Shown here: positions 41,466-59,849 of the stretch, piece by piece
How positions within the stretch are numbered: the first letter of the stretch is position 1
How the letters are laid out: each line of letters starts with the position of its first letter
Assembly (NCBI RefSeq): GCF_022865125.1
Contig: NZ_CP094828.1
Coordinates: forward strand, 4,271,219 to 4,335,218
Source: Acuticoccus sp. I52.16.1
GTDB lineage: Bacteria > Pseudomonadota > Alphaproteobacteria > Rhizobiales > Amorphaceae
Length of the DNA stretch: 64,000 nucleotides
Reading direction: 5' to 3'
Program-made: the position numbers and the translations under genes
The notes under the pieces: model-generated
Told to the model about the DNA's origin: nothing
Seen by the model: the letters and a program-made list of their open reading frames with translations, nothing else
The model's database searches: none

Positions 41466-42629
41466 TCAGACGGTCTCGATCGCCTCGGCGAGGCTGTCGC
41501 ACACGTGGCGGGCCTCCTCGTCGGTGAGGTCGGGGCCCATCGGCAGGCTCAGCACCTCGTTCGCCAGCATCTCCGACACCGGCAAATGCTCCTCGCCGGT
41601 GAGCGACGCGGCGAAGGCCGGGTGGCGGTGCAGCGGCACGCGGTAGAAGAGACCGGTGCCGATCTGCCGGTCGGTCAGCGCCTGGCGCACCGCGTCGCGG
41701 TACTTCACGCGCACGGTGTAGAGCGCCCAGGCCGAGCGCACGCTCTTGGTGTCGGCCGGCGGCTGGGTGCAGATGTCGGAGAGTTCCGACTGGTAGAGCG
41801 CGGCGAGCTCGGCCCGGCGGTTCAGCTCGGCCTTGAAGACCGAGAGCTTGGACAGGAGGATCGCCGCCTGGATGGTGTCGAGCCGGCCGGTCATGCCGAT
41901 GCGCATCGCCTCGTCGCCGTCGCCCTGGCGGCCGTGGGTGCGGATCTGGCGCACGATGCCGGCGAGGTCGTCGTCGTCGGTCAGCACCGCGCCGCCGTCA
42001 CCGAACGCGCCGAGCGGCTTCGTCGGATAGAAGGAGACGCACGAGATCGGCGCCAGCGCTCCGACCCGCTTGGCCCCCACCGAGCCGCCGAAGGACTGCG
42101 CGGCGTCGGCGATCAGCGGCAGGCCGTGCATGTCGGCCACGGCCTTCAGCGCGGTGTAGTCGGCCGGGCGGCCGAAGAGGTCCACCGGCATGACCGCCTT
42201 CGGGGTCAGCCCGCGGGCCTTGGCGGAGGCGACCGCGCCGTCGATCTCGGCGGCGCCCATGTTGTAGGTCGCGGGGTCGACGTCGACGAAGATCGGCGTC
42301 GCGCCGACCGTCAGCACCACCGCCGCGGTCGCCGAGAAGGTGAAGGCCGGGACGAGGACGGCGTCGCCGGGGCCGATCCCCATCGCCATCAGCGCCATGA
42401 TGAGCGCGTCGCGGCCGGAGGAGACGGCGATGCAGTGCTTCACGCCGCAGAACGCGGCGAGATCATGCTCCAGCTCGGTGACTTCGGGGCCGAGGATGTA
42501 CTGGCCGTGGTCGAGCGCCTTGGCGATGCGGCGGTCGATGTCGAACCGCAGACGGGCCTGCTGACGCTTCAGGTCGAACAACGGGATCGGCGAATCGGTA
42601 ACCGGGGCCCGTGCGAGGATGGCAGTCAT
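41466..42629 (-). CDS. DegT/DnrJ/EryC1/StrS aminotransferase, probable UDP-GlcNAc3N aminotransferase GnnB
   Basis: A 387-residue PLP sugar aminotransferase. Landmarks are CIAVSSGRDALIMALMAMGI, VLVPAFTFSATA, the Asp of LIADAAQSFGG and the PLP lysine in SFYPTKPLGAFGDGG. It follows the MocA-type dehydrogenase by ten bases. Such a two-gene set matches GnnA/GnnB, which convert UDP-GlcNAc to the 2,3-diamino sugar used to build amide-linked lipid A in many Hyphomicrobiales. A WbpE-like role in O-antigen sugars is the alternative. Confidence 0.8.
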   Translation of the reverse strand: MTAILARAPVTDSPIPLFDLKRQQARLRFDIDRRIAKALDHGQYILGPEVTELEHDLAAFCGVKHCIAVSSGRDALIMALMAMGIGPGDAVLVPAFTFSATAAVVLTVGATPIFVDVDPATYNMGAAEIDGAVASAKARGLTPKAVMPVDLFGRPADYTALKAVADMHGLPLIADAAQSFGGSVGAKRVGALAPISCVSFYPTKPLGAFGDGGAVLTDDDDLAGIVRQIRTHGRQGDGDEAMRIGMTGRLDTIQAAILLSKLSVFKAELNRRAELAALYQSELSDICTQPPADTKSVRSAWALYTVRVKYRDAVRQALTDRQIGTGLFYRVPLHRHPAFAASLTGEEHLPVSEMLANEVLSLPMGPDLTDEEARHVCDSLAEAIETV

Positions 42630-42639
42630 GTTCGACCTT

Positions 42640-43551
42640 TCAGGCAGACAACTGGAACGAAGAGGTGGCGATCGCCGCGCGGATCCGCTCGGCGACCGCG
42701 AGGGCTGCGGCGCCGGCTTTGCCGGTCACCGTGGGTCGCGGGCCGCCCAGGACGGCCCGCACGAACTCGTCGAGTTCGGTGAAGAGGTTGTCGCGCGGGG
42801 CGACCGCTTCGTCGGCGGCGATGGCGCCGCCGGCGGTGCGGGCGAGGCGCCCCGCGGCGAGGTCGGCGCGCCACACCCCGTCCGCATCGTGCACGGTGAG
42901 GACGCGCTCGGTGACGGGCGAGAGGCGGCTGGCGGAGAGGTCCGCGGTGACGCCGTTCGCGAAGTGGAGCGTGGCGATCGCCGATTCGGTGCCGCCGTCC
43001 GGCGCCTGCGCGGTGACGGTGCGCGGCATCGCGCCGGCCAGCGTCAGCGCCAGGTCGATGTCGTGGATCATGAGGTCGAGCACGACGTCGACGACCGGCG
43101 GCACGGGCCGCGGCGGGTTGTGCCGGCGGGCGGCGATATGGGTGACGCCGCGGGCCTGGGAGGCGAGGGCGGCGAACGCGGGGTTGAAGCGCTCGATATG
43201 GCCGACCTGCAAGATCACGCCGGCGCGTTCGGCGGCGGCCACCAGCGCGGCGGCGTCGGTGTCGGTCCCGGCGATCGGCTTCTCGATGAAGACGGAGGCG
43301 CCCTTGGCGATCAGCGGCTCGGCGATGGCGCGGTGCGCCTCGGTCGGCACGGCGATGACGGCGGCGTCGGGCGTGATGGAGGCGAGGTCGCTCGTCCAGG
43401 CGGTGCCGAGATCGCCCGCCAGCTCGGCCGCACGCGCGCCGTCGCGGTCGACGATGGTGACCTGACCGACCAGCGGGTGTTGGCTGAGGTGCCTGGCATG
43501 ATGGCGTCCGAAGGAGCCGGCACCGATGGAGGCGATGTGAAGCGCTTGCAT
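42640..43551 (-). CDS. Gfo/Idh/MocA oxidoreductase, probable UDP-GlcNAc 3-dehydrogenase GnnA
   Basis: A 303-residue NAD(P)-dependent sugar dehydrogenase. GAGSFGRHHARHL binds the dinucleotide, FIEKPIAG is the family EKP motif and VGHIERFNPAF with LMIHDIDLAL form the active site. It would oxidise C3 of a UDP-amino sugar for the aminotransferase encoded ten bases downstream. The start ATG at 43551 faces a 350-base divergent region. The pairing supports GnnA; a WbpB-like role is possible. Confidence 0.78.
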   Translation of the reverse strand: MQALHIASIGAGSFGRHHARHLSQHPLVGQVTIVDRDGARAAELAGDLGTAWTSDLASITPDAAVIAVPTEAHRAIAEPLIAKGASVFIEKPIAGTDTDAAALVAAAERAGVILQVGHIERFNPAFAALASQARGVTHIAARRHNPPRPVPPVVDVVLDLMIHDIDLALTLAGAMPRTVTAQAPDGGTESAIATLHFANGVTADLSASRLSPVTERVLTVHDADGVWRADLAAGRLARTAGGAIAADEAVAPRDNLFTELDEFVRAVLGGPRPTVTGKAGAAALAVAERIRAAIATSSFQLSA

Positions 43552-43901
43552 GTCCTGTGAAGTAGCATGCGCTTCGATACTTTGGAGTTACCGGGCGGCC
43601 CGAAACCGGCCTGACGCACTCAAATGGTGTTGCAGCATGTTACCAAATGGCGCCTTTGCCACACACCACTGTGGTGGTGTTGCAGAATTGTCGGCCCCGC
43701 TATGCGCTCGGCGCACAGCTCAAGCGATCCGACAACTCTGAGATGCCCACAACGCTCTTCGTGATTCGGGGGAAGGGTGCGACTTATCCCTGACGGTGAG
43801 AATCGTTTACTTGCGTTCCGCGCGCAACACATCTCTATGTCGCTCCCCAATTGTATCGGTATGAGGCGGATGGTGCAGCGGCCCCGGCAAGGAACAGCGG
43901 C
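43552..43901. other. Divergent intergenic region with repeats
   Basis: 350 bases between the MocA-type and PfkB genes, visibly less GC-rich than the surroundings. It holds an 11-bp direct repeat with a palindrome between the copies (43625-43685) and should contain promoters for both directions. No coding frame with a plausible start was recognised. Confidence 0.55.
43625..43685. repeat. Direct repeats flanking a palindrome, possible operator
   Basis: TGGTGTTGCAG occurs at 43625-43635 and 43675-43685, exactly 50 bases apart (about five helical turns). Between them is ACCACTGTGGT (about 43666-43676), an inverted repeat with a single central base. Arrangement suggests a regulator binding two faces in phase. 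Confidence 0.5.
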
Positions 43902-44822
43902 GTGATCGTGTCGTGCGGCGAAGCGCTCGTGGACCTCATGCCCGAGGAGCTGGACGGCGAACTGATCTACCGGCCGGTGCTGGGGGGCTCGCCCTACAAC
44001 GTGGCGCTGGGCGTGGCGCGTCTGGGCGGGCGGGCGGCCTATCTGTGGGAGCTGTCGAGCGACCGGCTGGGCTGCGCCTTCGCCGAGGCGTTGGCGAACG
44101 AGGGGGTGGACATCTCCGCCGTCCGGCGTTCGGCGCGGGCGACTCCTGTGGGTATCGTCGATCTGTCGGGCTCCGAGCCCCGGTACAATATCGCCGATCC
44201 GGACCGGGTGATGCACGATACCGATCCGCCCGCATTGCCGGCCGGCGCGTCGATCCTGGTGGTCGGCTCGGCGGTGCTGGCGCAGGAGCCGGTGGCGGAT
44301 CGGCTGGAGGCGCTGGCCATGGCGGCGCCGCTGGTGGCGATGGACTATAATGTGCGGCTGCCGAGCATCACCGACCTGCCGCGCTACCGGGGGCGGCTGG
44401 AGCGGATGTCGGCGCGGGCGGGAATCGTGAAGGCGAGCGAGGCCGACCTGGCGATGATCGGGGTGGACGACGCGGAGGCGTTTCTGCACCGTATGTTGCA
44501 GGCCGGCGCCGCTTTGGCGGTCCTGACGCGCGGCGGCGAAGGGGTCTCGGCCTGGACGGCGGGTGCGTCGGTGCATGTCGCGGCGCGCCGAGTCGAGGTT
44601 GTCGATGCAGTCGGGGCTGGAGATGCGTTCATGGCAGGTTTATTAGCATCACTCCAATGTGGAAAGTTGTTGGCCGGGCCGTCGCTCCACGCGCTGACCG
44701 AGGCGCGGTTGACCGACGTCATCGGAACAGCGCAATCGGTCGCCGCGGTTGCGTGTACGAAGCGAGGAGCCGTCATGCCGAAACATACAGAAATCGGTGG
44801 ACCGTTGTTCCCGCTCGCCTGA
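43902..44822 (+). CDS. PfkB family carbohydrate kinase
   Basis: A 306-residue ribokinase-fold sugar kinase. N-terminal GGSPYNVALGVARLG contacts the sugar and VVDAVGAGDAFMAGLL is the ATP/anion-hole motif with the catalytic Asp. Fructokinase, ribokinase or KDG kinase roles are possible; the sequence alone does not decide. GTG at 43902 is preferred over ATG 43851 because AAGGA lies eight bases upstream and the fold starts there. It precedes the polyketide synthase by 151 bases. Confidence 0.82.
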   Translation: MIVSCGEALVDLMPEELDGELIYRPVLGGSPYNVALGVARLGGRAAYLWELSSDRLGCAFAEALANEGVDISAVRRSARATPVGIVDLSGSEPRYNIADPDRVMHDTDPPALPAGASILVVGSAVLAQEPVADRLEALAMAAPLVAMDYNVRLPSITDLPRYRGRLERMSARAGIVKASEADLAMIGVDDAEAFLHRMLQAGAALAVLTRGGEGVSAWTAGASVHVAARRVEVVDAVGAGDAFMAGLLASLQCGKLLAGPSLHALTEARLTDVIGTAQSVAAVACTKRGAVMPKHTEIGGPLFPLA

Positions 44823-44973
44823 GGCCTCCGCCTTTGTTGCTTGGAAAACCTCGATCGCCTATGCGTCTGTATCGCCCGGACGATGCAGTTTTTGCGACTT
44901 GGGGGCAGGATGAATCTCGAATGAGCCGGTTCGTCTTGTCTCGGTTCGCCGGTTGGACTGAAGGATCGCCAGT

Positions 44974-47900
44974 ATGACGGTTACGGACTCGCGTGTCGCT
45001 CTTGTCGGGTCCGCTTGCCGCCTCCCCCAAGCTGAAGGGCTGGAGGCGTTCTGGGATGTGCTCGTCAACGCCAAGTGCGTGATCTCCTCGCTCGACGAGG
45101 AGCGATTCGGCACGCTGCCCTACCTGCACCCGGACCGCTCCAAGCCCGGCCGCTCGGTGACGTTCGCGGCCGGCCAGATCGCGCGCCCCTATCACTTCGA
45201 CCCGGGCTATTTCGGCATCTCGCCGCGCGAGGCCGCCACGATGGACCCGCAGCAGCGCGTCCTCCTGGAGGTCGCCGTCGAGGCGCTGGAGAACGCCGGC
45301 ATCCCGGCCGACCGCCTCGCCGGCCAGCAGGTCGGCGTCTATGTCGGCGCGTCCTCGCTCGATTATTCCAACGAGGCGCAGCTCGACCCGATGTCGATCG
45401 AGCCGCAGTCGATGACGGGCAACACGCTCTCCATCGTCGCCAACCGCGTCTCCTACGTGTTCGACCTGCGCGGCCCCAGCTACACGGTCGACACCGCCTG
45501 CTCGTCCTCGCTCATCGCCCTGCACCAGGCGATCGAGGACATCCGCGCCGGCAAGATCGAGACCGCCATCGTCGGCGGCGTCTCGCTGCTCCTCAACCAC
45601 ATTCCGTTCATCGGCTTCTCGCGCGCGTCGATGCTGTCGGCGGGCGGCCTGTGCCGCGCGTTCGACGCCGGCGCGGACGGCTACGTGCGCTCCGAGGGCG
45701 CCGTCGTCATGGTGCTGCGCTCCGAAGAGGCGGCGCGGCGGGACAGCGACCCGATTCGCGCCCGCTTCGTCGGCTCCGGCATCAACGCCGACGGGCGGAC
45801 CGCGGGCCTCTCGCTGCCGTCCCCCACGGCGCAGGCCGACCTGCTGCGCCAGGTCTACGAGGCGGGCGGGATCGACCCGGCACGCCTCGCCTTCGTGGAG
45901 GCGCACGGCACCGGCACGCGCGTCGGCGACCCGATCGAGACCAACGCCATCGGCACCGTGCTGGGCCAGAAGCACGGCGATCCGCTGCTGATCGGCTCGT
46001 CGAAGACCAACTTCGGCCATCTGGAGCCGGCCTCCGGCCTCGTCGGTATCCTGAAGTCGCAGCTGGCGCTGGCCAACAACCTGCTGCCGGCCTCGCTCCA
46101 TTTCGAGGTCCCCAACCCGGACATCGACTTCACCGAGCTGAACCTCACCGTCGCGGCCGAGGCGACGACGCTGGCGCGGGCGCCGGAACCGCGCCTCGCC
46201 GGTATCAATTCGTTCGGCTTCGGCGGCGCCAACGCGCACGTCGTCATGGCCGACGGGGAGCCGATCGGCGAGGCGGCTGCGCCCAAGGGCGACGCACCGC
46301 TGGTCGTCAGCGCCGCCACCCGCGCGGCGCTGGGCGAGCTCGCGGCCGCCACCGCCAAGGCCCTCGGCGGCGCCGATGCCGCCCGCCTCGCGGCCCACGT
46401 CAACGCCGCCGCGCACCGCCGGCAGCGCCTGTCGCACCGCGCCGTGATCGCGTCGGACGACGCCAGCGCCATGGTCGCGGCGCTGAACGCCGTCGCCGAG
46501 GGGCAGAACCACCCGCTCGCCGCCGTCGGCGAGGCGGCCTCGGTGGGCGAAAAGCCGGTATTCGTCTATTCGGGGAACGGCTCGCAGTGGGCCGGCATGG
46601 GGCGCGCCGCCTACCAGGGCGAGACCGATTTCCGCCTCTCGTTCGACCGCACGGACCGGCTCTTCATGTCGGTCGCGGGCTGGTCGCTGGTGACGATGCT
46701 GTTCTCCGGCGACCTCGAGACCGAGATCGAGCGGACCGAGATCGCTCAGCCGCTGCTGTTCGCGATCCAGGTCGCGCTGACCGACGCGCTGGAGCGCCGC
46801 GGCGTCACCCCGTCGGCGGTGATGGGCCACTCGGTGGGCGAGGTCGCCGCCGCGTGGGCCTCCGGCGCGCTGTCGCTGAGCGATGCGGTCAAGGTGATCC
46901 ACGCCCGCTCCACGCACCAGGAGGTGACCCGTCACCTCGGCGGGATGGCGGCGCTGCTGCTGCCGGCCGAAGAGGCGGTGGAGGCGATCGCGCCCTACCA
47001 CGGGCTGGAGCTGGCGGCGGTCAATTCCAGCCGCTCCGTCACCATCTCGGGACCGACCGAGCAGCTCGCCGTCTTCGGCAAGGACGCCCGCAAGAAGCGC
47101 TGGGCGATGAAGCGGCTCGACCTCGACTATCCGTTCCACTGCGCGCTGGTGGAGCCGATCCGCGGACCACTGCTGCAGTCGCTGAGCGCCATCGCGCCGC
47201 GGCCGACCACCATCCCGATGATCTCCACCGTGACGGGCGAGCCGGTCGACGGGACGCGGCTCGGCGCCGACTACTGGTGGGAGAACGTGCGCCAGCCGGT
47301 CGATTTCCAGAAGGGCGTCCTCGCCTCGCTGGAGGAGGGCCACCGCCTTTATGTGGAGATCGGGCCCCGCCCGGTGCTGACCGGCTACCTCAACGACGCG
47401 CTGCGCACCGCCGAGATCCGCGCCACCGTGCTGCCGTCCTTCCGCCAGGGCGAGGGCGCGGCCGAGCCGGTCGCCGAGGTTCTGCGCACGCTGATCGCCA
47501 ACGGGACCGCCATCGACGATGCGGCGCTGTTCGGCGAGCGACGTGCCGCGCCGGACCTGCTGCCGACCTACCCCTGGCAGCACCAGCGCTACAAGAAGGC
47601 CGAGTCGAACGAGATCGTCTGGCTGATGAAGCGGCGCGATCACGTGCTGCTCGGCGACCGCGTGCGCGAGGACATCCACGAGTGGCGCATCGGGCTCGAC
47701 CCGGTGGTGCTGCCCTTCCTCGCCGACCACACGGTCGAGACGTCGGTCGTCTTCCCCGCGGCGGGCTTCACCGAGATGCTGCTGGCGGTGGGCCGCGTGC
47801 TCTATCCGGGCCACCCGGTGGAGGTGCGCGGGCTCGACATCATCGCCCCGCTGGTGCTCGACGCGTCGGACGACCGCACCGTGCGCACGCGCGAGATCGC

Positions 47901-50900
47901 GCCGCAGACCTTCGTCATCGAGAGCCGCATCCGCGGGGCCGACGACGGCTGGTCGCCGCACGTCAAGGCGACGGTCGCCAAGGCCCCCGCCGCGCCGCAC
48001 GGTGCGGCGATCGCGGTGCCGGAGGGCGCGCCGACGGTGCCGGCCGCACGGCTCTACGAGATCACCGCGCAGTTCGGGCTCCCCTACGGCCCGGTCTTCC
48101 GCCGCGCCAACCTCGTCACCCTGGTGGACGATTCGCACATTCACGTGCGCCTCAGCCCGCCGGATCCGGCCACCGCGCGCCTCAAGCTGGCGCTCGACCC
48201 GACGATGTTCGACGCCTGCTTCCATGGCCTCTTCGCCTTCCTGGCGGGGCGCGACGAGGTCCGCGGCGTGGCGGTCCTGCCGATCCGTCTCGGCCGCCTG
48301 ACGCTCGCCGCCGACGCCGCGACGCCGACCGAAGCCGACATCACCGTTCGCCGCCCGACCGAGGGGATCGTCGAGGCCGACTTCGTGCTGCGCGATGCCG
48401 CCGGCGCCGTCGTCGCCACCGCCGAGGCGGTGCGCTTCCAGGCCGTGCCGCTGGCCCACGCGGTCGGCGAGCCGGTGGTCGCCGCGCCGAAGCTGCGCCG
48501 CGTCGCCCGCGTCAGCGCGCCCGCATCGGACCTGCCGCCGCTGGCCCCGTCGGTCGATACCGCGACCGAGCCGTCCGAGACCGCACTCTTCGTCGAGGCC
48601 GGGGTGCTCGCCGCCGCGGTCGAGGCGCTGGGGCCGATCCTGACGCCGCCGGCGTCGCTGCAGAGCTGCGTCGCCGAGGGGCGCCTCGCCGGCAACGCCG
48701 TGCCGCTGGCCGCGCGCGTGCTGCCGGCGCTCGTCGCCGCGGGCCTCGCCGAGGAGGACGGCGGCACGTTCGCGCTCACCGGCGAACCGGTCGACATCTC
48801 CGAGATCGTCACCCTCCTGATCGAGGAGCATCCCGAGCGGCTCGCCGAGGCGACGCTCCTCGCCGCGCTTCCCGAGTGGCTCGCCGAGACCTTCCGCTCC
48901 GGCCTCGCCGCCGAGCACCCGGCATCCGACGCGCTCCTCGACCAGCTCCTCGTCAGCGCCCCGTTCACCGCGCCGCTCTACGCCGCGATCGGCGCCTTGA
49001 CCGACACGGCGCTCAGCTCCAGCGGCGCGGCACTGACGGTCTGCCTCGTCGGCGCCGGCAACGTCGCCTTCGCGCGGGAGGTGGCCGCGCTGATCGATCC
49101 GGAGCGGGTCCGCCTCACGATCACCGATACCTGCCCCGTCACGCTGGAGCGCACCGCGCTGGTGTGGGACCGGCACGAGGGCGTCCACCTGGAGCCGTTC
49201 TCCGCCGCCCGCGAGCACCGGTACGACCTCGTCGTGATGACGCCGCAGTTCGGACCGATGGACGTCGCCGCCGCGGCGGAGTGCCTGCGGCCGGGCGGGC
49301 GGCTCCTGGGCGGCGCGCTCGCCGGCAACCTCTTCGCCGACGTGATCGGCGGCCTCACCACCGACTGGTGGGCCGCCTCGCTCGATGCGGAAAGCCCCGT
49401 CGGTGCGCTCAATGCGCCCGAGGAGTGGACCGCTGCGCTCACCGAAGCCGGCCTCGAAGCGATCGACGTGCACACCCTGCCGTCGGACGAGACCGACGCG
49501 ATGATCTTCACCGCGAGCCGTGCCGCCGGTGTCAAGGCGCCGACGCTCGAGACCTTCCCCGCCCTCGTCGCCGACGGCCCGGCCGCCGGGCGCACGCTGG
49601 AAGCCCTGCGTGCGATGGCCGACGACGCGCCCGAGCTCGCCGACCTGACCGCCACTCCCGACGGGCCGGTGGTGCTCGCCGTCGACGTGCCAGAGCCGGC
49701 CGACCTCCCGGCGCGCCTCGCCGCCGTCGGTTCGTGGCTCGTCGCCCTCGGCACCGAGGCGCGCACCGTGACCCTGGTGACGTTCGGCGCCCAGGTGGAA
49801 GGAGCCAAGGAGGTCCGCCCGACCGCCGCCGCCGTCTCCGCCTTCGGCCGCGTCGCGATGAACGAGTTCCCGCACCTCGACATCCGCCTCGTCGACATCG
49901 CCGCGTCGTTCGACGCCAGTGAGGCGGCCGTGCGCCTGATGGCCGAGCTGGTCGAGCCCAACGGCGAGCGCGAGATTGTCCTCTCCAGCGACCACCGCAG
50001 CGTGATGCGCTACGTGCCGCTGGCGGAGGAGACCGCCGGCGAGGCGCTCACCCTCGCCGTGCCCCGTCGCGGCTCGATCGACAATCTCGTCTGGTCGCCG
50101 ACGCAGCATCCGCCGCTCGGCGCGGGCGACGTGCGCATCAAGGTCGAGGCGTCGGGCCTCAACTTCCGCGACGTGATGTGGACCCTCGGCCTCTTGCCGC
50201 ACGAGGCGCTGGAGGACGGCTTCGCCGGCCCGACGCTCGGCATGGAATGTGCCGGTGTGGTCGAGGCGGTGGGCGAGGAGGTCACGGACGTGAAGCCGGG
50301 CGACCTGGTGCTCGCCTTCGCGCCGCAGTCCTTCGCCAGCCACGTCACGGTGACGGCGCAGTCGGTGATCCCGCGTCCGGTGGAGCTCGCGGCCGAGGCC
50401 GCGGCGACCATGCCGGTCGCCTTCCTCACCGCCTACTACGCCCTCATCGAATTGGCGCACTTGGAGGAAGACGAGACCGTCCTCATCCACGGCGGCGCCG
50501 GCGGCGTCGGCCTCGCGGCATTGCAGATCGCCAAGTGGCGCGGCGCGCGCGTCTTCGTGACCGCCGGCACGCCGGAAAAGCGCGCACTGCTGCGGGAGCT
50601 GGGCGCTGACGAGGTGTTCGATTCGCGCGGTCTGACCTTTGCCGAGGAGGCCAAGGCCGCGACGGACGGGGAGGGCGTCGACGTCGTCCTCAACTCGCTC
50701 GCGGGCGAGGCGATGGAGCGCTCGCTCGACACGCTGAAGCCGTTCGGCCGCTTCTGCGAGCTGGGCAAGCGCGACTTCTATGCCGACACCAAGCTCGGCC
50801 TGCGCCCGTTCCGGCAGAACCTCAGCTATTTCGGCATCGACGCCGACCAGCTGATGAAGCACCGCCCCAAGGTGGCGCGCCGGGTGCTGGGCCAGATCGT

Positions 50901-52281
50901 CGCGATGATGGACTCCGGCGACCTGACGCCGCTGCCCTATCGCCCGTTCGACGCCGGCGGCGTGAAGGACGCCTATCGCCTGATGCAGGCCGCCGGGCAT
51001 ATCGGCAAAATCGTCGTCACCCCGCCGCAGCCCGTCGCGCCGACGGTGGCGCATCAGCCGGTCGCCATCGTGGCCGACAAGGCCTACCTCCTGGTCGGCG
51101 GCGTCTCCGGATTCGGTTTCCGCACCGCCGAATGGTTGATCGAGCACGGCGCCGAGGACCTCGTGCTGGTGAGCCGCTCCGGCGTCAAGGACCAGGCCGT
51201 CGCCGAGGCGATCGAGGCCTATCGCGGCAAGGGCATCGCCATCGACGTGCGCTCGCTCGACGTCACGAACGAGGCGGCGGTGCGCGAGCTGGTCGCCGAG
51301 ATCGGCACCACGCGCCCGCTCGGCGGCGTCTTCCACATGGCGATGGTGCTCGACGATGCGCTGATCGCCTCGCTGGACGCGGGCCGGTTCGAGACGGCGA
51401 TGCACCCCAAGATCGCCGGCGCCAACGCGCTGGAGGCGGCGACCGCGGACATCCCGCTCGACCTCTTCGTGCTCTATTCGTCGATCACGGTGCAGCTCGG
51501 CAATCCGGGCCAGGCCAACTACGTCGCCGCCAACGCCTACCTGGAGGCGATCGCGCGTCGCCGCCGGGCGCGCGGGCAGGCGGGGCTCACTATCGCCTGG
51601 GGCGCGATCGCCGACGCCGGCGTCTTCGCCCGATCGCTGGAGACGTCCGACCTGCTGCGCCGCAAGCTGGGCCGCCACGCGATCACCGCCGGCGACGGGC
51701 TCGCGGTCCTGAAGCGCTTCCTCGACGAGGGGGCGATGACCTCCGGACCCGCGGTGCGCCTGATCGGTCAGGTGGATTGGGCGACGGCGCGCAAGGAGCT
51801 GATCATCGCCCGCAGCCCCGCGTTCGAGGATCTCGCCGACGCCGCCGACGCGGACGGCGACGACGCCGGCTCGCTGGACCTCGCCGAGCGTATCGCCGGC
51901 CTCTCGCCGTCCGAGGCGGTGGCCGAGGTGACGCGCCTGCTGGCGGTGGAGATTAGCCGCATCCTCAAGATGCCGGCCTCCGAGGTGGACCCGCACAAGC
52001 CGCTCACCACGCTCGGCATGGATTCGCTGATGGGCGTGGAGCTCAGAATGAGCGCCGAGCAGAAGCTCGGCGTCGACATTCCGCTGATGTCGCTCACGGC
52101 GGGCGCCACGCTCGCCGACATCGCCAAGAAGGTCGTGCATCGCACCACCGGAGAAGAGGCGAGCGACGAGGACCAGGACGAGCTGATCGCCCGCCACATC
52201 GGGTCCGCCGATGCGCCGCGTGAGGCGATCGAAGCCGCGGTGCGCGAGCGAACCGCGGGTGTGAGGACCATCCTGTCATGA
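44974..52281 (+). CDS. Type I polyketide/fatty-acid synthase (RkpA-like)
   Basis: A 2435-residue single-module synthase. KS about 5-425 with Cys176 (DTACSSSL), His311 (EAHGTGT) and His349 (NFGHLE). AT about 528-830 with Ser620 (GHSVGE). DH about 890-1150 with His919 and Asp1080; the usual HxxxG has Thr for Gly. Then a degenerate methyltransferase-like segment (about 1250-1530), ER about 1699-2010 (GGAGGVG 1840-1846), KR about 2030-2220 (GGVSGFG, Tyr2183) and ACP with Ser2351 (GMDSLMG). There is a full reductive loop and no thioesterase. The stop overlaps the alpha-oxoamine synthase (ATGA), which probably releases the chain. Matches RkpA of Sinorhizobium in layout. Confidence 0.92.
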   Translation: MTVTDSRVALVGSACRLPQAEGLEAFWDVLVNAKCVISSLDEERFGTLPYLHPDRSKPGRSVTFAAGQIARPYHFDPGYFGISPREAATMDPQQRVLLEVAVEALENAGIPADRLAGQQVGVYVGASSLDYSNEAQLDPMSIEPQSMTGNTLSIVANRVSYVFDLRGPSYTVDTACSSSLIALHQAIEDIRAGKIETAIVGGVSLLLNHIPFIGFSRASMLSAGGLCRAFDAGADGYVRSEGAVVMVLRSEEAARRDSDPIRARFVGSGINADGRTAGLSLPSPTAQADLLRQVYEAGGIDPARLAFVEAHGTGTRVGDPIETNAIGTVLGQKHGDPLLIGSSKTNFGHLEPASGLVGILKSQLALANNLLPASLHFEVPNPDIDFTELNLTVAAEATTLARAPEPRLAGINSFGFGGANAHVVMADGEPIGEAAAPKGDAPLVVSAATRAALGELAAATAKALGGADAARLAAHVNAAAHRRQRLSHRAVIASDDASAMVAALNAVAEGQNHPLAAVGEAASVGEKPVFVYSGNGSQWAGMGRAAYQGETDFRLSFDRTDRLFMSVAGWSLVTMLFSGDLETEIERTEIAQPLLFAIQVALTDALERRGVTPSAVMGHSVGEVAAAWASGALSLSDAVKVIHARSTHQEVTRHLGGMAALLLPAEEAVEAIAPYHGLELAAVNSSRSVTISGPTEQLAVFGKDARKKRWAMKRLDLDYPFHCALVEPIRGPLLQSLSAIAPRPTTIPMISTVTGEPVDGTRLGADYWWENVRQPVDFQKGVLASLEEGHRLYVEIGPRPVLTGYLNDALRTAEIRATVLPSFRQGEGAAEPVAEVLRTLIANGTAIDDAALFGERRAAPDLLPTYPWQHQRYKKAESNEIVWLMKRRDHVLLGDRVREDIHEWRIGLDPVVLPFLADHTVETSVVFPAAGFTEMLLAVGRVLYPGHPVEVRGLDIIAPLVLDASDDRTVRTREIAPQTFVIESRIRGADDGWSPHVKATVAKAPAAPHGAAIAVPEGAPTVPAARLYEITAQFGLPYGPVFRRANLVTLVDDSHIHVRLSPPDPATARLKLALDPTMFDACFHGLFAFLAGRDEVRGVAVLPIRLGRLTLAADAATPTEADITVRRPTEGIVEADFVLRDAAGAVVATAEAVRFQAVPLAHAVGEPVVAAPKLRRVARVSAPASDLPPLAPSVDTATEPSETALFVEAGVLAAAVEALGPILTPPASLQSCVAEGRLAGNAVPLAARVLPALVAAGLAEEDGGTFALTGEPVDISEIVTLLIEEHPERLAEATLLAALPEWLAETFRSGLAAEHPASDALLDQLLVSAPFTAPLYAAIGALTDTALSSSGAALTVCLVGAGNVAFAREVAALIDPERVRLTITDTCPVTLERTALVWDRHEGVHLEPFSAAREHRYDLVVMTPQFGPMDVAAAAECLRPGGRLLGGALAGNLFADVIGGLTTDWWAASLDAESPVGALNAPEEWTAALTEAGLEAIDVHTLPSDETDAMIFTASRAAGVKAPTLETFPALVADGPAAGRTLEALRAMADDAPELADLTATPDGPVVLAVDVPEPADLPARLAAVGSWLVALGTEARTVTLVTFGAQVEGAKEVRPTAAAVSAFGRVAMNEFPHLDIRLVDIAASFDASEAAVRLMAELVEPNGEREIVLSSDHRSVMRYVPLAEETAGEALTLAVPRRGSIDNLVWSPTQHPPLGAGDVRIKVEASGLNFRDVMWTLGLLPHEALEDGFAGPTLGMECAGVVEAVGEEVTDVKPGDLVLAFAPQSFASHVTVTAQSVIPRPVELAAEAAATMPVAFLTAYYALIELAHLEEDETVLIHGGAGGVGLAALQIAKWRGARVFVTAGTPEKRALLRELGADEVFDSRGLTFAEEAKAATDGEGVDVVLNSLAGEAMERSLDTLKPFGRFCELGKRDFYADTKLGLRPFRQNLSYFGIDADQLMKHRPKVARRVLGQIVAMMDSGDLTPLPYRPFDAGGVKDAYRLMQAAGHIGKIVVTPPQPVAPTVAHQPVAIVADKAYLLVGGVSGFGFRTAEWLIEHGAEDLVLVSRSGVKDQAVAEAIEAYRGKGIAIDVRSLDVTNEAAVRELVAEIGTTRPLGGVFHMAMVLDDALIASLDAGRFETAMHPKIAGANALEAATADIPLDLFVLYSSITVQLGNPGQANYVAANAYLEAIARRRRARGQAGLTIAWGAIADAGVFARSLETSDLLRRKLGRHAITAGDGLAVLKRFLDEGAMTSGPAVRLIGQVDWATARKELIIARSPAFEDLADAADADGDDAGSLDLAERIAGLSPSEAVAEVTRLLAVEISRILKMPASEVDPHKPLTTLGMDSLMGVELRMSAEQKLGVDIPLMSLTAGATLADIAKKVVHRTTGEEASDEDQDELIARHIGSADAPREAIEAAVRERTAGVRTILS

Positions 52282-53663
52282 AGAAGCGCGGCATCGGCTC
52301 CCTCAAGTCGGCGGCGAAGGATCAGCTCCTCGCCGCCGCGCGGGCCTCCCGTCAGGCGGGTCTCGAACGCAAGCTCGAGCGCCTCGTGCCGGACAACTCC
52401 GACGGCCGCTCCGTCGGCAAGTCGTTCGATTTCTCCACGCTGGAGACGGCGCGGCAGCTGAAGATCCAGCGCGCCGCCGCCGAGATGCTCAACATCGACG
52501 TGCCGTTCTTCCGCCCGCACGACGTGCAGGCCGCCGCGCACACGCGTATCGGCAACCGCGAGTACATCAACTTCTCCTCCTACGACTATTGCGGCCTCAA
52601 CGGTGACCCGCGCGTCACCGCCGCCGCCCGCGAGGCGATGGAGCGCTTCGGCACCTCCGTGTCCGCCTCGCGCGTCGTCTCCGGCGAGCGGCCGTTCCAC
52701 CGCGAGCTGGAGAAGAACATCGCCCGCTTCCTGGGTGTGGAGGACGCGGTGGCGATGGTCTCCGGCCATGCCACCAACGTCACCACGATCGGCCACCTCC
52801 TGGGGCCGAACGACCTGGTGCTGGCGGACGCGTTCATCCACAACTCCATCGTCGAGGGGGTGCGGCTCGCCGGGGCGACGCGGCTCACCTTCCGCCACAA
52901 CGACATGGACCACCTCGCCGAGCTCTTGTCGGCCAAGCGCCACCAGTTCAACCGTGTGCTGATCGCGGTCGAGGGCCTCTACTCGATGGACGGCGACACG
53001 CCGCCGCTCGACCGCCTGATCCGCCTCAAGACCCGCCACGACGCGTGGCTGCTGGTGGACGAGGCGCACGCGCTGGGCGTCGTCGGCCAGACCGGACGGG
53101 GCCTCGCCGAGCGGGAGGGGATCGACCCCAACGCCGTCGAGATCTGGATGGGGACGCTGTCCAAGACGCTGTCGTCCTGCGGCGGCTTCATCGCCGGCTC
53201 CACGGCGCTGGTGGAATACCTGAAGGCGACGGCCCCGGGCTTCGTCTTCTCCGTCGGTCTCGCCCCCTCCGTCGCCGCCTCGGCCAATGCGGCGCTGCTG
53301 GCGCTGGAGGCCGAGCCGGAGCGCGTCGCCCGGCTGGTCCACAACGGCCAGCATTTCCTCAAGGCCGCCAAGGCCGCGGGGCTCGACACCGGCACCGCCG
53401 AGGGGCTCGCGGTGCTTCCGGTCATCATCGGCGATTCCATCGTCTCCGCGCTCGTCGCCCACCGCCTCGCGGAGGCGGGCGTGAACGTGCAGCCGATCAT
53501 CTTCCCCGCCGTTCCCGAGCAGGCGGCGCGGCTGCGCTTCTTCGTCAACGCCACCCACACCGAAGACGACATCGACACCGCCGTCCGCCTCACGGCCGAA
53601 TGCCTCGAGCGCACCCGCAAGGACGGCGCCGGCCTGACCCAGCTCGCCGCCAGCTTGCGGTAG
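52278..53663 (+). CDS. PLP-dependent alpha-oxoamine synthase (RkpG-like)
   Basis: A 461-residue member of the family of 8-amino-7-oxononanoate synthase and serine palmitoyltransferase, which condense an amino acid with an acyl thioester and lose CO2. After a basic N-terminal extension of about 90 residues come FSSYDYCGLNGDP, VSGHATNVTTI, DEAHALGVVG (Asp261, His264) and the PLP lysine Lys296 in TLSKTLSSCGG. Coupled by ATGA to the synthase, so the donor is probably its ACP-bound chain. Matches RkpG. The amino-acid partner cannot be read from sequence. Confidence 0.88.
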   Translation: MKKRGIGSLKSAAKDQLLAAARASRQAGLERKLERLVPDNSDGRSVGKSFDFSTLETARQLKIQRAAAEMLNIDVPFFRPHDVQAAAHTRIGNREYINFSSYDYCGLNGDPRVTAAAREAMERFGTSVSASRVVSGERPFHRELEKNIARFLGVEDAVAMVSGHATNVTTIGHLLGPNDLVLADAFIHNSIVEGVRLAGATRLTFRHNDMDHLAELLSAKRHQFNRVLIAVEGLYSMDGDTPPLDRLIRLKTRHDAWLLVDEAHALGVVGQTGRGLAEREGIDPNAVEIWMGTLSKTLSSCGGFIAGSTALVEYLKATAPGFVFSVGLAPSVAASANAALLALEAEPERVARLVHNGQHFLKAAKAAGLDTGTAEGLAVLPVIIGDSIVSALVAHRLAEAGVNVQPIIFPAVPEQAARLRFFVNATHTEDDIDTAVRLTAECLERTRKDGAGLTQLAASLR

Positions 53664-53691
53664 GCACAAGCGCTGCGCGGGCGGCTCGGCG

Positions 53692-54744
53692 TCAGCCGTC
53701 GTCGACCGGGGTATCGTCGAAGCGGTCGCGGTCCAGCCGGCGGGATTTGAAGGAGGGCTCGATCCGCGGGTCGGGCTCGATCTCGGCGCGGAAGGTGGGC
53801 ACGATCCGGTCGATGATCCCGCCCGGCGCGATCGCTTCACCCAGCGACAGGAGCCGGAAGGGAAGCGGGAAGACCGACGTGCGGCGCCCGCCTTCGGTGG
53901 CGGCGACGATCTTGCGCGCGGCCCGCTCGGCGCTGATCTCGAACGGCTTGGCGCCCTTGTGACGGGCCGACATCGGGCTCGTCACGAAGCCGGGGCACAG
54001 CACCGTGACGGTGATCCCGTCGTTGATCAGGCGCGGGCGCAGGGCGTGACCGTAAGCGATGAGCCCCGCTTTCGTCGCGGAATAGACGGCGAGGTCGGGG
54101 GTCGGCATCAGCCCGGCGGTCGAGGCGACGATGCCGATGTGCCGCTCGGGCCGTGTCGTCACCGTCTGCCGGCGCATGCGCTCCACGATCACCCGGATGC
54201 AGCTGATGTTGGCGAGCAGGTTGGTGCGCACCAGCCGCTCGGTGTCCTCCGCGCTCTCCAGCGCGTTCGGGCCCGGAGGGCCGGCGGAGAGCCCGGCATT
54301 GGCGTAGAGCGCCTCGAAGGTGTAGCGCTCGGCGGTATCGTCGGCCCAGTGCTGGAAGGCCGGGGTGGTGATGTCGATCCGGCTGGTGATCGCCCGGCCG
54401 CCGCGGCGCTCGACCGCCTCCATCGCGGCCTCCAGCCCCTTCGGATTGCGCCCCACGAGGCCGAGCACCAGACCCGGCCGCGCCAGCCGCTCGGCCAGCG
54501 CCTGGCCGATGCCGCCCGATGCCCCGGTGATGATGACGAGGGGCGGCTTGGCCTCGCGCTCCGAACGGACCGCCGGGGCGGCGGGCGAGGCGAGCGGCGC
54601 TGCGGGCGTGGATGCGGAGGACGCGGCTGGCGCGGATGCGGAGGACGCATCGGGCGGCGTCCGCGTGGGTTCGGCCGGCTCGCTCGCGGTACGCTCGCCC
54701 GCGTCCGGCGGGGTGCCGGGCGGAGGGGCGGCCTCGGCGTTCAC
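53692..54744 (-). CDS. Short-chain dehydrogenase with Pro/Ala/Ser-rich N-terminus (RkpH / 3-ketosphinganine reductase-like)
   Basis: A 350-residue SDR. Residues 1-65 are low complexity. The core has ITGASGGIGQALAE, ANAGLS and the Ser/Tyr/Lys set (VASTAGLMP, VYSATKAG). The C-terminal 60 residues resemble RkpH and KDSR-type reductases. Reduction of the 3-keto group of the oxoamine product is the likely role. GTG start at 54744 lies six bases after the smpB stop, so it is expressed with dapA/smpB and converges on the synthase operon, ending 28 bases from it. Confidence 0.82.
   Translation of the reverse strand: MNAEAAPPPGTPPDAGERTASEPAEPTRTPPDASSASAPAASSASTPAAPLASPAAPAVRSEREAKPPLVIITGASGGIGQALAERLARPGLVLGLVGRNPKGLEAAMEAVERRGGRAITSRIDITTPAFQHWADDTAERYTFEALYANAGLSAGPPGPNALESAEDTERLVRTNLLANISCIRVIVERMRRQTVTTRPERHIGIVASTAGLMPTPDLAVYSATKAGLIAYGHALRPRLINDGITVTVLCPGFVTSPMSARHKGAKPFEISAERAARKIVAATEGGRRTSVFPLPFRLLSLGEAIAPGGIIDRIVPTFRAEIEPDPRIEPSFKSRRLDRDRFDDTPVDDG
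54610..54648. repeat. 15-bp direct repeat inside the SDR N-terminal extension
   Basis: GGATGCGGAGGACGC occurs at 54610-54624 and 54634-54648, period 24. It encodes part of the Ser/Ala/Pro-rich extension, so the extension has probably grown by in-frame duplication. Confidence 0.75.
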
Positions 54745-56518: not shown

Positions 56519-56649
56519 GGCCGGGCCTTTCTTGTTGGGTGTCGATCCGGCGGGTGGGGCACGGACCGCCCTCTTGTCGGCATGCGTTACCGAAAAGGTA
56601 AGCTAGAGTTGATACTGGTCCGTAGTGCACCGGCGTTTTGGGGGACGCA

Positions 56650-58995
56650 ATGCGGTTCTGCGTTGTGAACAGTGTGACGATACTAACTTTGGCGGCGAGT
56701 GTGGGCGCCGTGTCCGCCGCGCCGCTCTCGTCGCTGCCACGGGCTCCGGTCGCGGCCGGCGTCCTGATGGTCGACGAGCGCGTGCCGGTGCCGCAGCCCC
56801 ATCCCCGCGCGGCGGCCCGAGCGGGAACGGGCACGAGTACCAGCACCAGTGCCGCGCTGCCGTCCGCCAGGATCATCGGCCGCGTCGAGAACGGGCAGGC
56901 CGTGCCGGTGGCCGCGGCCGCCTTTGCCGCCCGCGCCGACCGCGGCCCCATGAAGACCCTGTTCGAGGCCGCCGAGAAGCAGGCCGACCCGAACGCCCCC
57001 GTGGCCTCCATCGCCGCGGTCGCCGCGCGCAGCAGCTCGCCGGCGCTCCTCGCCGGGCACGGAGCGCCGCGGGCGGGCGGACCCTCTCCGTTCGCCGCGG
57101 AGGGTCGCCAGGCCAGCTCCCTCAAAGGCGCGCTCGATGCCCTGAAGGCCGACCGGTACCAGGAGGCGTTGCAGCGTCGCAACGGCCTGAGCGACCCGCT
57201 CGATCAGAAGATCGTCGACTATTTCCTGGTGCGCGCCGGCACCAACGAGCTGTCCTCCGCGATGATTGCCGACTATGCGGTGCGCGCGCCCGACTGGCCC
57301 GAGCCGGAGCTGGTGCGTGGCCGCGCCGAGGAGGCCCTCTCGCGCGAGAATCCGGGGGCCGACGCCGTCATCAAGGCGATGGGCGGGCAGGCCACCTCGC
57401 TGGTCGGCAAGCGCCTCCTCGCCAACGCGATGATCGCCGAGGGGGACGTCGCCGGCGGCATGAAACTGGTGCGCTCGGTCTGGCACGAGCGCGCGCTGGG
57501 CACCGGGCTGCAGTCCGCCTATGTCGACGACTTCGCGGCCCGCCTCACCATCGACGATCACCTGGAGCGGATCGACAAGCTGATCGCCAACAACCGGTTC
57601 GAGGAGGCGCAGGCGCTGCGGGGCCGGCTCGGCACCGGCCCGCGCGCCTACCTCGACGCGCGCATCGCGGTCGCGACCAACAACGGGCGCGGCGGCCGTG
57701 CGCTGGCGTCGGTACCGGCGGATCTGCGCAAGCGTCCCGGCTACCGTCTGGCCCAGATCGAGGAAAAGCGCCGCGAGGACGACCTCGACGCGGCCGCCCG
57801 CCTCATCGAGACCGCCTCCAAGCGCGACATCGTCGACGGGGACGCGTGGTGGGTCGAGACGCGCATCGTGGCGCGGATGATGGCCGAGAAGGGCGACGGC
57901 AAGCGCGCCTACCAGCTGGTGACGATCGGCTTTGCCGAGGGCGCCGTGGAGCGGGCGGACCAGGCCTTCCACGCTGGCTGGTTCGCCATGCGCTACCTGC
58001 GGGACGGCAACCGCGCCGCGCGCCACTTCGCCGAGCTGGAACAGATCGCGACGACGCCGCTCTCGCTCTCGCGGGCGCATTACTGGCGCGGCCGCGCCGC
58101 GGCGCTGGCGGGACACGGCGGCGAAGCGCGCACCGCCTACAACGAGGCCGCGCACTTCGGCTTCACCTATTACGGCCAGCTGGCCCGCGCCGAGATCGGC
58201 GCAAGCGGCACCGGTGTCGGCCGCGCGCCGGACCCCACGCCGTCCGACCGGGCGATGTTCGCGCGCAACGAGGTCGCCGAGGCGGTCTCGCGGCTCATCA
58301 AGTCCGGCCACAAGCACCGGATCGCCACGCTGCTCGCCCACCTGGCGAAGACGGTGCCGACGCCCGGGCAGGCAGCCCTCGCCGCGCAGCTCGCGGACGA
58401 GGCTGGCTACCCGCATCTGGCGCTGATGGTCGCCAAGGATGCGCAGCGGCGCGGGCTCGACGTCGGCCGGCTCGCCTATCCCAGCAACGCCATCCCGCAC
58501 ACCGCGAAGGTGCCGACCGGGCTCGACCGGGCGGTGGTGTTCTCGATCGCGCGGCAGGAATCGGAGTTCAATCCGGGCGCCGTCAGCCCCGTCGGCGCCA
58601 GCGGGCTCATGCAGGTGATGCCGCAGACAGCGGCCGCCATGGCACGCGAGCTGGGCCTCAGCCACTCGCAGTCGAAGCTCACCAGCGACCCCGGCTACAA
58701 CGCGACGCTGGGCGCGGCCTACCTCGCCAAGCGCCTCGGCAACTACAACGGCTCCTACATCCTCACCTTCGCCGCCTACAACGCTGGCGCGGGGCGGGTG
58801 AACGAGTGGATCCAGCGCTTCGGCGACCCGCGCGACCCCAACGTCGACGCGCTGGCCTGGGTCGAGGATATTCCATATCCCGAGACGCGAAACTACGTGC
58901 AGAGGGTGATGGAGAACGTGCAGGTCTACCGCGAGGCGCTCGGCACGGGGCGCCTGGCGATCGAGACGGACCTGTCGCGAGGGAGGCAGAGCTGA
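56650..58995 (+). CDS. Soluble lytic murein transglycosylase (Slt70-like)
   Basis: A 781-residue periplasmic enzyme that cleaves the glycan strand to 1,6-anhydroMurNAc. Signal peptide at 1-24, a variable Ala-rich part to about 150, a helical superhelix (about 155-600) and the C-terminal SLT domain: catalytic Glu in RQESEFNPGAVSP, GLMQVMPQTA and AYNAGAGRVNEW. The ATG at 56650 is preferred over TTG 56638 because GGGGGA precedes it and the signal peptide starts there. Its stop overlaps the CTG of the next gene. Confidence 0.9.
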   Translation: MRFCVVNSVTILTLAASVGAVSAAPLSSLPRAPVAAGVLMVDERVPVPQPHPRAAARAGTGTSTSTSAALPSARIIGRVENGQAVPVAAAAFAARADRGPMKTLFEAAEKQADPNAPVASIAAVAARSSSPALLAGHGAPRAGGPSPFAAEGRQASSLKGALDALKADRYQEALQRRNGLSDPLDQKIVDYFLVRAGTNELSSAMIADYAVRAPDWPEPELVRGRAEEALSRENPGADAVIKAMGGQATSLVGKRLLANAMIAEGDVAGGMKLVRSVWHERALGTGLQSAYVDDFAARLTIDDHLERIDKLIANNRFEEAQALRGRLGTGPRAYLDARIAVATNNGRGGRALASVPADLRKRPGYRLAQIEEKRREDDLDAAARLIETASKRDIVDGDAWWVETRIVARMMAEKGDGKRAYQLVTIGFAEGAVERADQAFHAGWFAMRYLRDGNRAARHFAELEQIATTPLSLSRAHYWRGRAAALAGHGGEARTAYNEAAHFGFTYYGQLARAEIGASGTGVGRAPDPTPSDRAMFARNEVAEAVSRLIKSGHKHRIATLLAHLAKTVPTPGQAALAAQLADEAGYPHLALMVAKDAQRRGLDVGRLAYPSNAIPHTAKVPTGLDRAVVFSIARQESEFNPGAVSPVGASGLMQVMPQTAAAMARELGLSHSQSKLTSDPGYNATLGAAYLAKRLGNYNGSYILTFAAYNAGAGRVNEWIQRFGDPRDPNVDALAWVEDIPYPETRNYVQRVMENVQVYREALGTGRLAIETDLSRGRQS

Positions 58996-59849
58996 GCGCG
59001 AACCTGACGACACCCGCGCGCGACGGGACGATCATCAACGCCGAGACCTTCGGCCCGGAGGCCGACCCCCGGCCCATCATCTGCCTGCCCGGCCTCAGCC
59101 GCAACGCGCGCGACTTCCGCGCCCTGGCGACGGCGCTGTCGACGCCGGACGGGTGGCCGGCGCGCCGGGTGATCGTCGTCGAATCGCGCGGTCGGGGGCG
59201 GTCCGGATGGGCCGAGACGAAAAGCTACAACGTCCTGCAGGAGCTCGACGATCTCCTCGTCTGCCTCGATGCGTGGGGCGTGGAGCGGGCGCAGTTCATC
59301 GGCACCTCGCGTGGTGGGCTGCTGACGATGCTGCTGGCGATGAAGGCGCCGGAGCGGATCGACCGCGCCATCCTGAACGACATCGGCCCCACCATCGAGC
59401 GGAGCGGCCTGGCGCGGATCGCGAGCGGGATCGGCAAGAAGATGGATCACGATTCCTACGAGGCGCTGGCCGACCATCTGGCCGAGACGCAAGGCTCGCA
59501 GTTCCCCCGGATGCCGCGCACCAAGTGGATCCGCTTCGCCAAGCAGCTGGCCTCACCCAACGACGCCGGCGGCGTGACGCTGGACTTCGACCCGCGCCTC
59601 GCCGAGACGGTGCGCGGTTACGACCCGGCCGAGCCGGCGCCGGACTTCTGGCCCGGCTTCGACGCGCTCTGCGGGCGCCCGGTGTTGGTCGTGCGCGGGG
59701 CCCACTCGGACCTCCTGTCGGCCGCGACGGTCGAGTCGATGCGCCGCCGCCACCGCGGCCTCGGCACCCTGGTGGTGCCGGACGAGGGTCACGCGCCGTT
59801 CCTGTGGGACCGCCACAGCATCGAGGCGATCAGCGGCTTCCTGAGCTGA
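58992..59849 (+). CDS. Alpha/beta hydrolase with CTG start
   Basis: A 285-residue hydrolase with nucleophile GTSRGG, a PGLSRNARDF oxyanion segment and late His in PDEGHAPFLWD. No ATG, GTG or TTG lies before the conserved N-terminal strand, so CTG 58992 is the probable start: GGGAGG at 58981-58986 is five bases upstream and CTGA overlaps the transglycosylase stop. Substrate unknown. Followed by a strong bidirectional terminator. Confidence 0.8.
   Translation: MSANLTTPARDGTIINAETFGPEADPRPIICLPGLSRNARDFRALATALSTPDGWPARRVIVVESRGRGRSGWAETKSYNVLQELDDLLVCLDAWGVERAQFIGTSRGGLLTMLLAMKAPERIDRAILNDIGPTIERSGLARIASGIGKKMDHDSYEALADHLAETQGSQFPRMPRTKWIRFAKQLASPNDAGGVTLDFDPRLAETVRGYDPAEPAPDFWPGFDALCGRPVLVVRGAHSDLLSAATVESMRRRHRGLGTLVVPDEGHAPFLWDRHSIEAISGFLS

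Follow-up and report, generated by a model that had tools for sequence, protein, structure and literature searches.

What does a bacterium make with a polyketide synthase in which no thioesterase is recognised and whose gene overlaps that of an alpha-oxoamine synthase, and what is the product for? The question is raised by three genes of Acuticoccus sp. I52.16.1, found in a stretch of 64,000 nucleotides (NZ_CP094828.1, positions 4,271,219 to 4,335,218, forward strand) that we call the window. A type I polyketide synthase (PKS) and an alpha-oxoamine synthase (AOS) lie on the same strand and a short-chain dehydrogenase/reductase (SDR) converges on them, the layout also given by a first-pass annotation of this DNA. 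By analogy with characterised homologues, the three genes very likely build a sphingolipid-like lipid by a polyketide route. New here is evidence that this pathway, in a reduced form, is co-inherited with two distant genes for capsule-type transferases of 3-deoxy-D-manno-oct-2-ulosonic acid (Kdo). The three genes and the domains of the PKS are as follows.

44974..52281, + strand: iterative type I PKS (SgaA/RkpA-type), 2435 aa, from its Pfam order KS-AT-DH-ER-KR-ACP, its motifs and its place beside the AOS in the genus
44989..46248, + strand: KS domain (PF00109/PF02801; Cys/His/His motifs)
46558..47460, + strand: AT domain with YPFH (PF00698, motif)
47641..48450, + strand: DH domain (PF21089/PF14765)
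48451..50073, + strand: DH-ER inter-domain region without Pfam match; by eye, a methyltransferase (MT)-like remnant and a probable structural KR
50119..51018, + strand: ER domain (PF08240/PF00107/PF13602)
51082..51612, + strand: KR domain (PF08659)
51943..52128, + strand: ACP domain with GMDSL (PF00550, motif)
52278..53663, + strand: AOS (SgaB/RkpG-type), 461 aa, from profile scores, tree and motifs
53692..54744, - strand: SDR, predicted 3-keto reductase, 350 aa, from motifs and a quick tree; Pro/Ala-rich N-terminal extension

A conserved PKS-AOS pair with a converging reductase

The start codon of the AOS (ATG, 52278-52280) and the stop codon of the PKS (TGA, 52279-52281) share the four bases ATGA, and 28 bases lie between the AOS stop and the 3' end of the SDR on the opposite strand, so the overlap and the convergence are as first annotated. 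The 5' end of the SDR is only 6 bp downstream of smpB. This arrangement is not due to chance, since the AOS is present in all eight genomes of the genus that were examined, our own included (68-100% identity), and the PKS adjoins it in all seven others. No AOS was found in two sister-genus genomes at E <= 1e-60. A search of 41 genomes at that threshold gave 17 that match; twelve carry AOS relatives of at least 45% identity, and five carry enzymes at 34-38% that are, by NCBIfam scores, three serine palmitoyltransferases (SPT) and two 5-aminolevulinate synthases (ALAS).

The PKS carries DTACSS, EAHGTGT and KTNFGH in its KS, GHSVGE in its AT, HTVETSVVFP and DACFH in its DH, GGAGGVG in its ER, GGVSGFG and YVAAN in its KR and GMDSL in its ACP, all of which we take to be the expected active-site motifs of these domains. 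The YPFH of the AT presumably marks a malonyl-type enzyme. No thioesterase was matched by Pfam anywhere in the 2435 residues, and domains and motifs together support the earlier description of a single-module, fully reducing PKS without one. Some 530 residues that separate DH from ER match no Pfam family; by eye they comprise an MT-like remnant, with a poor S-adenosylmethionine (SAM) motif, and what is probably a structural KR. The same remnant with a poor SAM motif is seen in the seven aligned relatives, and an unbranched chain is therefore likely. Near 1.876 Mb of contig C1 in the same genome, another stretch (L147:73-2772) matches the window PKS with 28% identity (273 bits); it lies about 3 kb from a small sulfatase-like open reading frame (ORF) and possibly belongs to a second type I PKS or fatty acid synthase.

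The AOS belongs to a PKS-linked clade

About 75 residues precede the AOS fold. The pyridoxal phosphate (PLP) pocket expected of such an enzyme appears sound, as TLSK (K296), DEAH (261-264) and DAFIHNS (H188) are all intact; we take K296 to be the PLP lysine and DEAH and H188 to be PLP-site motifs. The protein falls under every NCBIfam cut-off, with 349 of 426 bits for BioF (TIGR00858) and 287 of 500, 308 of 640 and 207 of 670 bits for the SPT models NF047599, NF047600 and NF047603. Its homologues in Sinorhizobium meliloti, a Pseudomonas plasmid and Reyranella likewise meet no cut-off.

In a careful tree of 40 hand-picked sequences, assembled without the Pseudomonas fluorescens MYb115 enzyme, the window AOS, RkpG and 28 others form one clade (support 100/99*, branch 1.43). 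Pseudomonas and Burkholderia enzymes fall inside these 30 rows; SPT, ALAS, BioF and Kbl all fall outside, where the placement of BioF and Kbl is unreliable because of long branches. The enzyme thus groups with RkpG among mostly PKS-linked relatives and not with BioF or ALAS, as the first-pass annotation had expected. A PKS is present in the fetched locus for 26 of the 30 rows and was not detected in the loci of the other four (L093, L110, L117 and L133). A scan of species genomes gave 595 stretches, the best 80 of which were kept; among these 80 the family extends over Proteobacteria, Planctomycetes, Actinobacteria, a metagenome-assembled Nitrospira genome and a cyanobacterium, and 68 of the loci have a detectable PKS. 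Searched with the AOS profile at E <= 1e-15, our genome returned this AOS and one ALAS only, and hence no classical SPT. Like the classical Spt pathway, the locus uses an enzyme of this superfamily for the same predicted reaction; it differs in that the acyl chain is predicted to come from the ACP of the PKS, in the missed SPT cut-offs and in the separate clade.

The SDR is related to reductases of other PKS-AOS loci

The SDR has the motifs TGASGGIG and YSATK. A quick tree of 45 sequences, SDRs together with KR stretches, places it inside a 30-row clade (99*) of reductases from other PKS-AOS loci, including the Pseudomonas and Caballeronia plasmids, with KR domains and unlinked SDRs outside. 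The RkpH-type SDRs of S. meliloti and Shinella, which are PKS-AOS-linked too, make up a separate six-row clade, and the earlier label 'RkpH-like' has to be given up in favour of the Pseudomonas/Caballeronia type. With a single-module KS-AT-DH-ER-KR-ACP synthase without thioesterase beside an AOS, and a nearby SDR of the same lineage, the gene set has the composition of an SgaABC-type cluster.

A stretch resembling TSPMSARHxGxKPFEIS is common to the window SDR and to proteins of genomes G019, G021, G096, G094 and G064, more loosely G199, and is absent from the Pseudomonas and Caballeronia SDRs compared. A profile search of solved structures gave 344 sequences; the best 60 of these are generic ketoreductases or other SDRs, none of them named KDSR, so 'KDSR-like' is a label by context. 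With up to 51 candidates scored per genome, the SDR was detected in AOS-bearing genomes only (8 of 12 with AOS, 0 of 29 without). Six of the eight genus genomes have it, each time next to smpB and in three of them next to the AOS as well. In G007 smpB directly abuts the AOS (L040:6976-8972) with no SDR between them, which suggests that the SDR was lost or moved there; in G006 the AOS is followed by genes that by eye resemble ruvC/A/B.

Comparison with characterised loci

As with PfSgaA/B/C of P. fluorescens MYb115, an iterative PKS is followed by an AOS and accompanied by an SDR proposed as 3-ketosphinganine reductase. Passages of PMC12134224 (2025) report that formation of C24, C26 and C28 sphinganines depends on both PfSgaA and PfSgaB, that PfSgaB makes 3-ketosphinganines from acyl-CoA and L-serine with a near-exclusive preference for serine over alanine and glycine, that PfSgaC is proposed, not more, as the reductase, that free sphinganines are produced along with what are probably phosphoglycerol sphingolipids, and that 6,101 homologous putative clusters were counted. 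Its main text contains no word that begins with capsul, Kdo or Rhizob. Because this chemistry is published for homologues, the core gene set is of a known kind. The scheme of the first-pass annotation, in which the AOS releases the ACP-bound chain and the SDR reduces the 3-keto group, is the published one, the SDR step being only proposed there; its remark that the product is not settled is now too broad, given the C24-C28 sphinganines of the Pseudomonas homologue.

The match to RkpA/RkpG/RkpH that had been drawn holds in part. The S. meliloti rkp-1 locus (L054) has the same PKS-AOS order and 4-base overlap, and its AOS is of the same clade and 50% identical; RkpH, unlike the converging SDR of the window, is codirectional and belongs to the other SDR clade. 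RkpJ-type proteins occur in our genome too, although there are two and both are distant from the PKS-AOS pair. The gene in the rkpI position of S. meliloti is lipoteichoic acid (LTA)-synthase-like, and neither an LTA-synthase-like gene nor an RkpJ is present in the window. The match to that rkpI-position gene is split in two, and the PLSDB gene table lacks the gene. A 2005 article by Fraysse et al. reportedly concerns, going by its title, a phospholipidic anchor of the S. meliloti Kdo homopolymer. The L054 record (CP090106.1), which bears the title S. meliloti Ak57 plasmid pSymB, has a length of 3.7 Mb and carries rkp-1; its replicon label may be wrong, since a passage of PMC3557214 describes rkp-1 as chromosomal in S. 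meliloti. The same source says that Sinorhizobium rkpA and rkpGHIJ make, modify and transport a lipophilic molecule, maybe a capsule carrier or anchor.

On a Pseudomonas plasmid (L055) the AOS is 49% identical and of the same clade as ours, and the SDR is of the same clade as the window SDR. There, four genes separate AOS and SDR, including a KpsC-like and an LTA-synthase-family gene, whereas in the window AOS and SDR are direct convergent neighbours.

Two distant KpsS/RkpJ-type genes are co-inherited with the AOS

No capsule gene was found within the window, and in this respect the first-pass annotation was right. However, two genes matching PF05159 (KpsS/RkpJ-type, beta-Kdo transferase), each single-domain, lie elsewhere in this genome, at distances of about 0.8 and 2.8 Mb. 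Both proteins meet the PF05159 cut-off and, as in group 2 capsules, match the NCBIfam KpsS model (NF050054), although with 228 and 133 bits they stay below its equivalog cut-off of 600. KpsS-1 is present in all eight genus genomes and KpsS-2 in seven, the fragmented G001 assembly giving only a weak second match.

Across 199 genomes of the order (AOS at E <= 1e-85, PF05159 at E <= 1e-35, up to eight candidates scored per genome), the AOS occurs in 58 and PF05159 in 63; 47 have both, 11 the AOS only, 16 PF05159 only and 125 neither (Fisher p 2e-21). Collapsed to 92 genera the counts are 19/9/10/54 (p 1.6e-6). Both p-values overstate the association, because related genomes do not count as independent cases. 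In 25 of the 47 double-positive genomes a KpsS gene lies at most 20 kb from the AOS. Five genomes of families f41 and f13 (G050, G083, G135, G189 and G096) have a tandem KpsS-type pair beside PKS-AOS, and G116 (f45) and G066 (f13) carry such a pair on a different contig.

In a careful tree of 39 proteins, drawn from the 70 of a quick tree, our KpsS-1 clusters with one member of each tandem pair (17 rows, 100/100*) and our KpsS-2 with the other (11 rows, 94/92); the quick tree agrees. The two paralogues are thus orthologues of the tandem pair linked to PKS-AOS. Since they are also co-inherited with the AOS, the earlier suggestion that the lipid may have another use here, made from the lack of capsule genes nearby, is weakened.

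A PKS-AOS pair with a convergent SDR and KpsS beyond it is found in G019, G021, G094, G096, a Reyranella (L076) and a Rhodospirillaceae isolate (L058). Given the KpsS orthology and the three genus genomes in which AOS and SDR still converge, the genus looks like a dispersed descendant of this layout from which the KpsS pair has moved. Against such a descent stand the four f41 loci with a tandem pair and that of G087, which have no SDR near the AOS, and that of G179, with a weak match. An ABC protein beside KpsS in G019, considered as a lipid exporter, proved to be of the Opp/peptide type.

Capsule genes surround the set in four annotated relatives (a Shinella plasmid, S. meliloti, a Pseudomonas plasmid and a Caballeronia plasmid). 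We searched with the proteins of these loci and of the window (tblastn) in the 45 of the best 80 named AOS loci that exceed 20 kb, and found a PKS in 42, an SDR in 23, an LTA-synthase-like gene in 22, KpsS/RkpJ in 20 and any capsule gene in 25. In the open literature, within a scope that leaves most subscription journals outside, no title or abstract opening joined PKS sphingolipids with KpsS or RkpJ.

Directly after our KpsS-1 lies a PrtD-type (type I secretion) ABC permease/ATPase (L145:16952-18685); it is also present in G001, G002, G003, G005 and G007 and was not seen in the G004 and G006 flanks.

Phosphoglycerol transferase and KpsC

With up to seven candidates scored per genome, an LTA-synthase-like (phosphoglycerol-transferase-like) protein above 340 bits was found in 14 of the 199 genomes, all of which have both AOS and KpsS. 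All six of the weaker matches (141-159 bits) come from family f23, in genomes negative for the AOS. Among the 47 double-positive genomes, 33, those of the window genus included, gave no such protein. Unlike in group 2 capsules, the PF05159 search of our genome gave no two-domain KpsC. A passage of PMC10148158 states that in E. coli a phosphatidylglycerol lipid receives its first beta-Kdo from KpsS and is then extended by KpsC. The simplest reading of the two absences is that a short Kdo cap would sit on the sphingoid base itself.

A candidate pathway and its alternatives

We propose that the locus is part of a dispersed and reduced system in which PKS, AOS and SDR make a sphinganine that anchors a Kdo glycolipid with the help of the distant KpsS pair, a proposal that we rate about evenly between right and wrong. 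The PKS would iterate on its own ACP to give a long, fully reduced and probably unbranched acyl chain. In a PLP-dependent decarboxylative condensation, the AOS would then join this chain to an amino acid, most likely L-serine, and so free it from the ACP as a 3-keto-sphinganine, which the SDR is predicted to reduce to a long-chain sphinganine. This sphingoid base could act as membrane anchor and, we infer, as acceptor in this organism, to which the two KpsS/RkpJ-type transferases may add Kdo, either as one or two residues or in a short Kdo-type glycan.

Several observations weigh against this proposal. Sphinganine chemistry is known from homologues and from no member of the genus, and no AOS residue is shown to select serine; selectivity by a single residue was considered and is not claimed. 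The phosphoglycerol-transferase-like gene of the Rhizobium and Pseudomonas loci would turn sphinganine into an acceptor like that of KpsS, and an LTA-synthase-like gene was found in none of the five genus genomes of the 199-genome sample; a counterpart of the rkpI-position protein was sought in our own genome among four PF00884 proteins, none of which matched a profile of 24 locus-linked proteins. Nor is the SDR a fixed part of the set: none was found in G006 and G007, nor did the AOS loci fetched from four f41 genomes and G087 contain one, and G179 gave a weak match only. In none of the eight genus genomes are the KpsS-type genes close to PKS-AOS: they lie at a distance or on a different contig. 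The co-occurrence is imperfect, with its AOS-only and KpsS-only genomes and its non-independent relatives, and no capsule gene was detected by tblastn in 20 of the 45 long named loci.

The distance and the capsule-free loci could equally be read as signs that PKS, AOS and SDR suffice for a free sphinganine or simple sphingolipid, the kinds of product reported for MYb115 (passages of PMC12134224), and that the KpsS pair serves an unrelated surface glycan. The co-occurrence over 199 genomes and the orthology with PKS-linked tandem pairs speak against this, and we consider it doubtful. If instead the PKS-made lipid anchored a conventional ABC-exported capsule, KpsC and the export genes would have been missed or be too diverged. 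This would suit the capsule gene found within 10 kb in the 25 long loci, the three Poly_export proteins of our genome and the S. meliloti Kdo homopolymer capsule, which has a lipid anchor and is affected by rkpA among other genes (passages of PMC5539429). We think it improbable, in that PF05159 gives two single-domain proteins and no two-domain KpsC; no capsule export gene was recognised beside our KpsS genes, and KpsM/T/E were not searched genome-wide. A deoxy-sphingoid or amino-ketone product, from use of alanine or glycine or from an unreduced keto group, would leave the SDR to another role as an smpB-operon gene. Its place 6 bp from smpB in the window, beside smpB in all six genus genomes where it was found and away from the AOS in three of these, fits this, as do the genus genomes and the six other-family AOS loci (one with the weak G179 match) in which it was not found. 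The SDR clade and its phylogenetic profile oppose it, as does the strong serine preference of the Pseudomonas AOS (a passage of PMC12134224), and it seems to us the most improbable of these alternatives.

Should the Kdo-glycolipid proposal hold, it might be extended, in a generalisation that we put forward tentatively and consider rather unlikely, to PKS-made sphingoid bases as a general anchor of Kdo-capped envelope glycolipids. The genus would then run a scattered, stripped version (PKS, AOS, SDR and two diverged KpsS, without phosphoglycerol transferase and KpsC) with Kdo directly on the base, and in Sinorhizobium the Kdo capsule would sit on this anchor too, there in the form of a phosphoglycerol sphingolipid. 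The co-inheritance joins sphinganine enzymes to the capsule anchor, in that Kdo-type surface glycans could sit on PKS-made sphingoid bases. If so, sphingolipids are made by many bacteria that are not listed among their producers, and partners as scattered as the two KpsS genes escape cluster mining.

Neighbouring genes

One further gene precedes the PKS.

43851..44822, + strand: PfkB-family kinase, conserved upstream of the PKS and ending 151 bp before it

This kinase precedes the PKS in all seven other genus genomes. It is fructokinase-like, below the listed cut-offs, and had no match near PKS-AOS in the scanned loci of other families; it may belong to the pathway. An antisense ORF (43620-44576) was rejected because the overlapping + strand frame 43851-44822 is better conserved in all seven genomes (for example 77 v 55, 60 v 39 and 57 v 43% identity), and an extra operon gene at 44657-44977 was dropped, having no family match. 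A second PfkB gene adjoins our KpsS-2 (L146); it was considered as a partner and not used, being present in G005 as well and not seen in the G002, G003, G004, G006 and G007 flanks.

Downstream, at 56625-59849 on the + strand, a 1074-aa ORF has an alpha/beta-hydrolase domain toward its C-terminus and some 800 residues without Pfam match; the coding strand is unsure, since the antisense frame 56683-59013 is conserved about as well. At 41466-43551 on the - strand, divergent from kinase-PKS-AOS, lie a Gfo/Idh/MocA dehydrogenase, with 144 of 450 bits for the UDP-GlcNAc 3-dehydrogenase model, and a DegT-type transaminase whose nearest solved structure is WbpE. We take the two to resemble GnnA/GnnB, and thus a lipid A or sugar-nucleotide step. 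Such a pair was not seen in the short G003 and G004 flanks and lies near the PKS in five of the seven other genus genomes.

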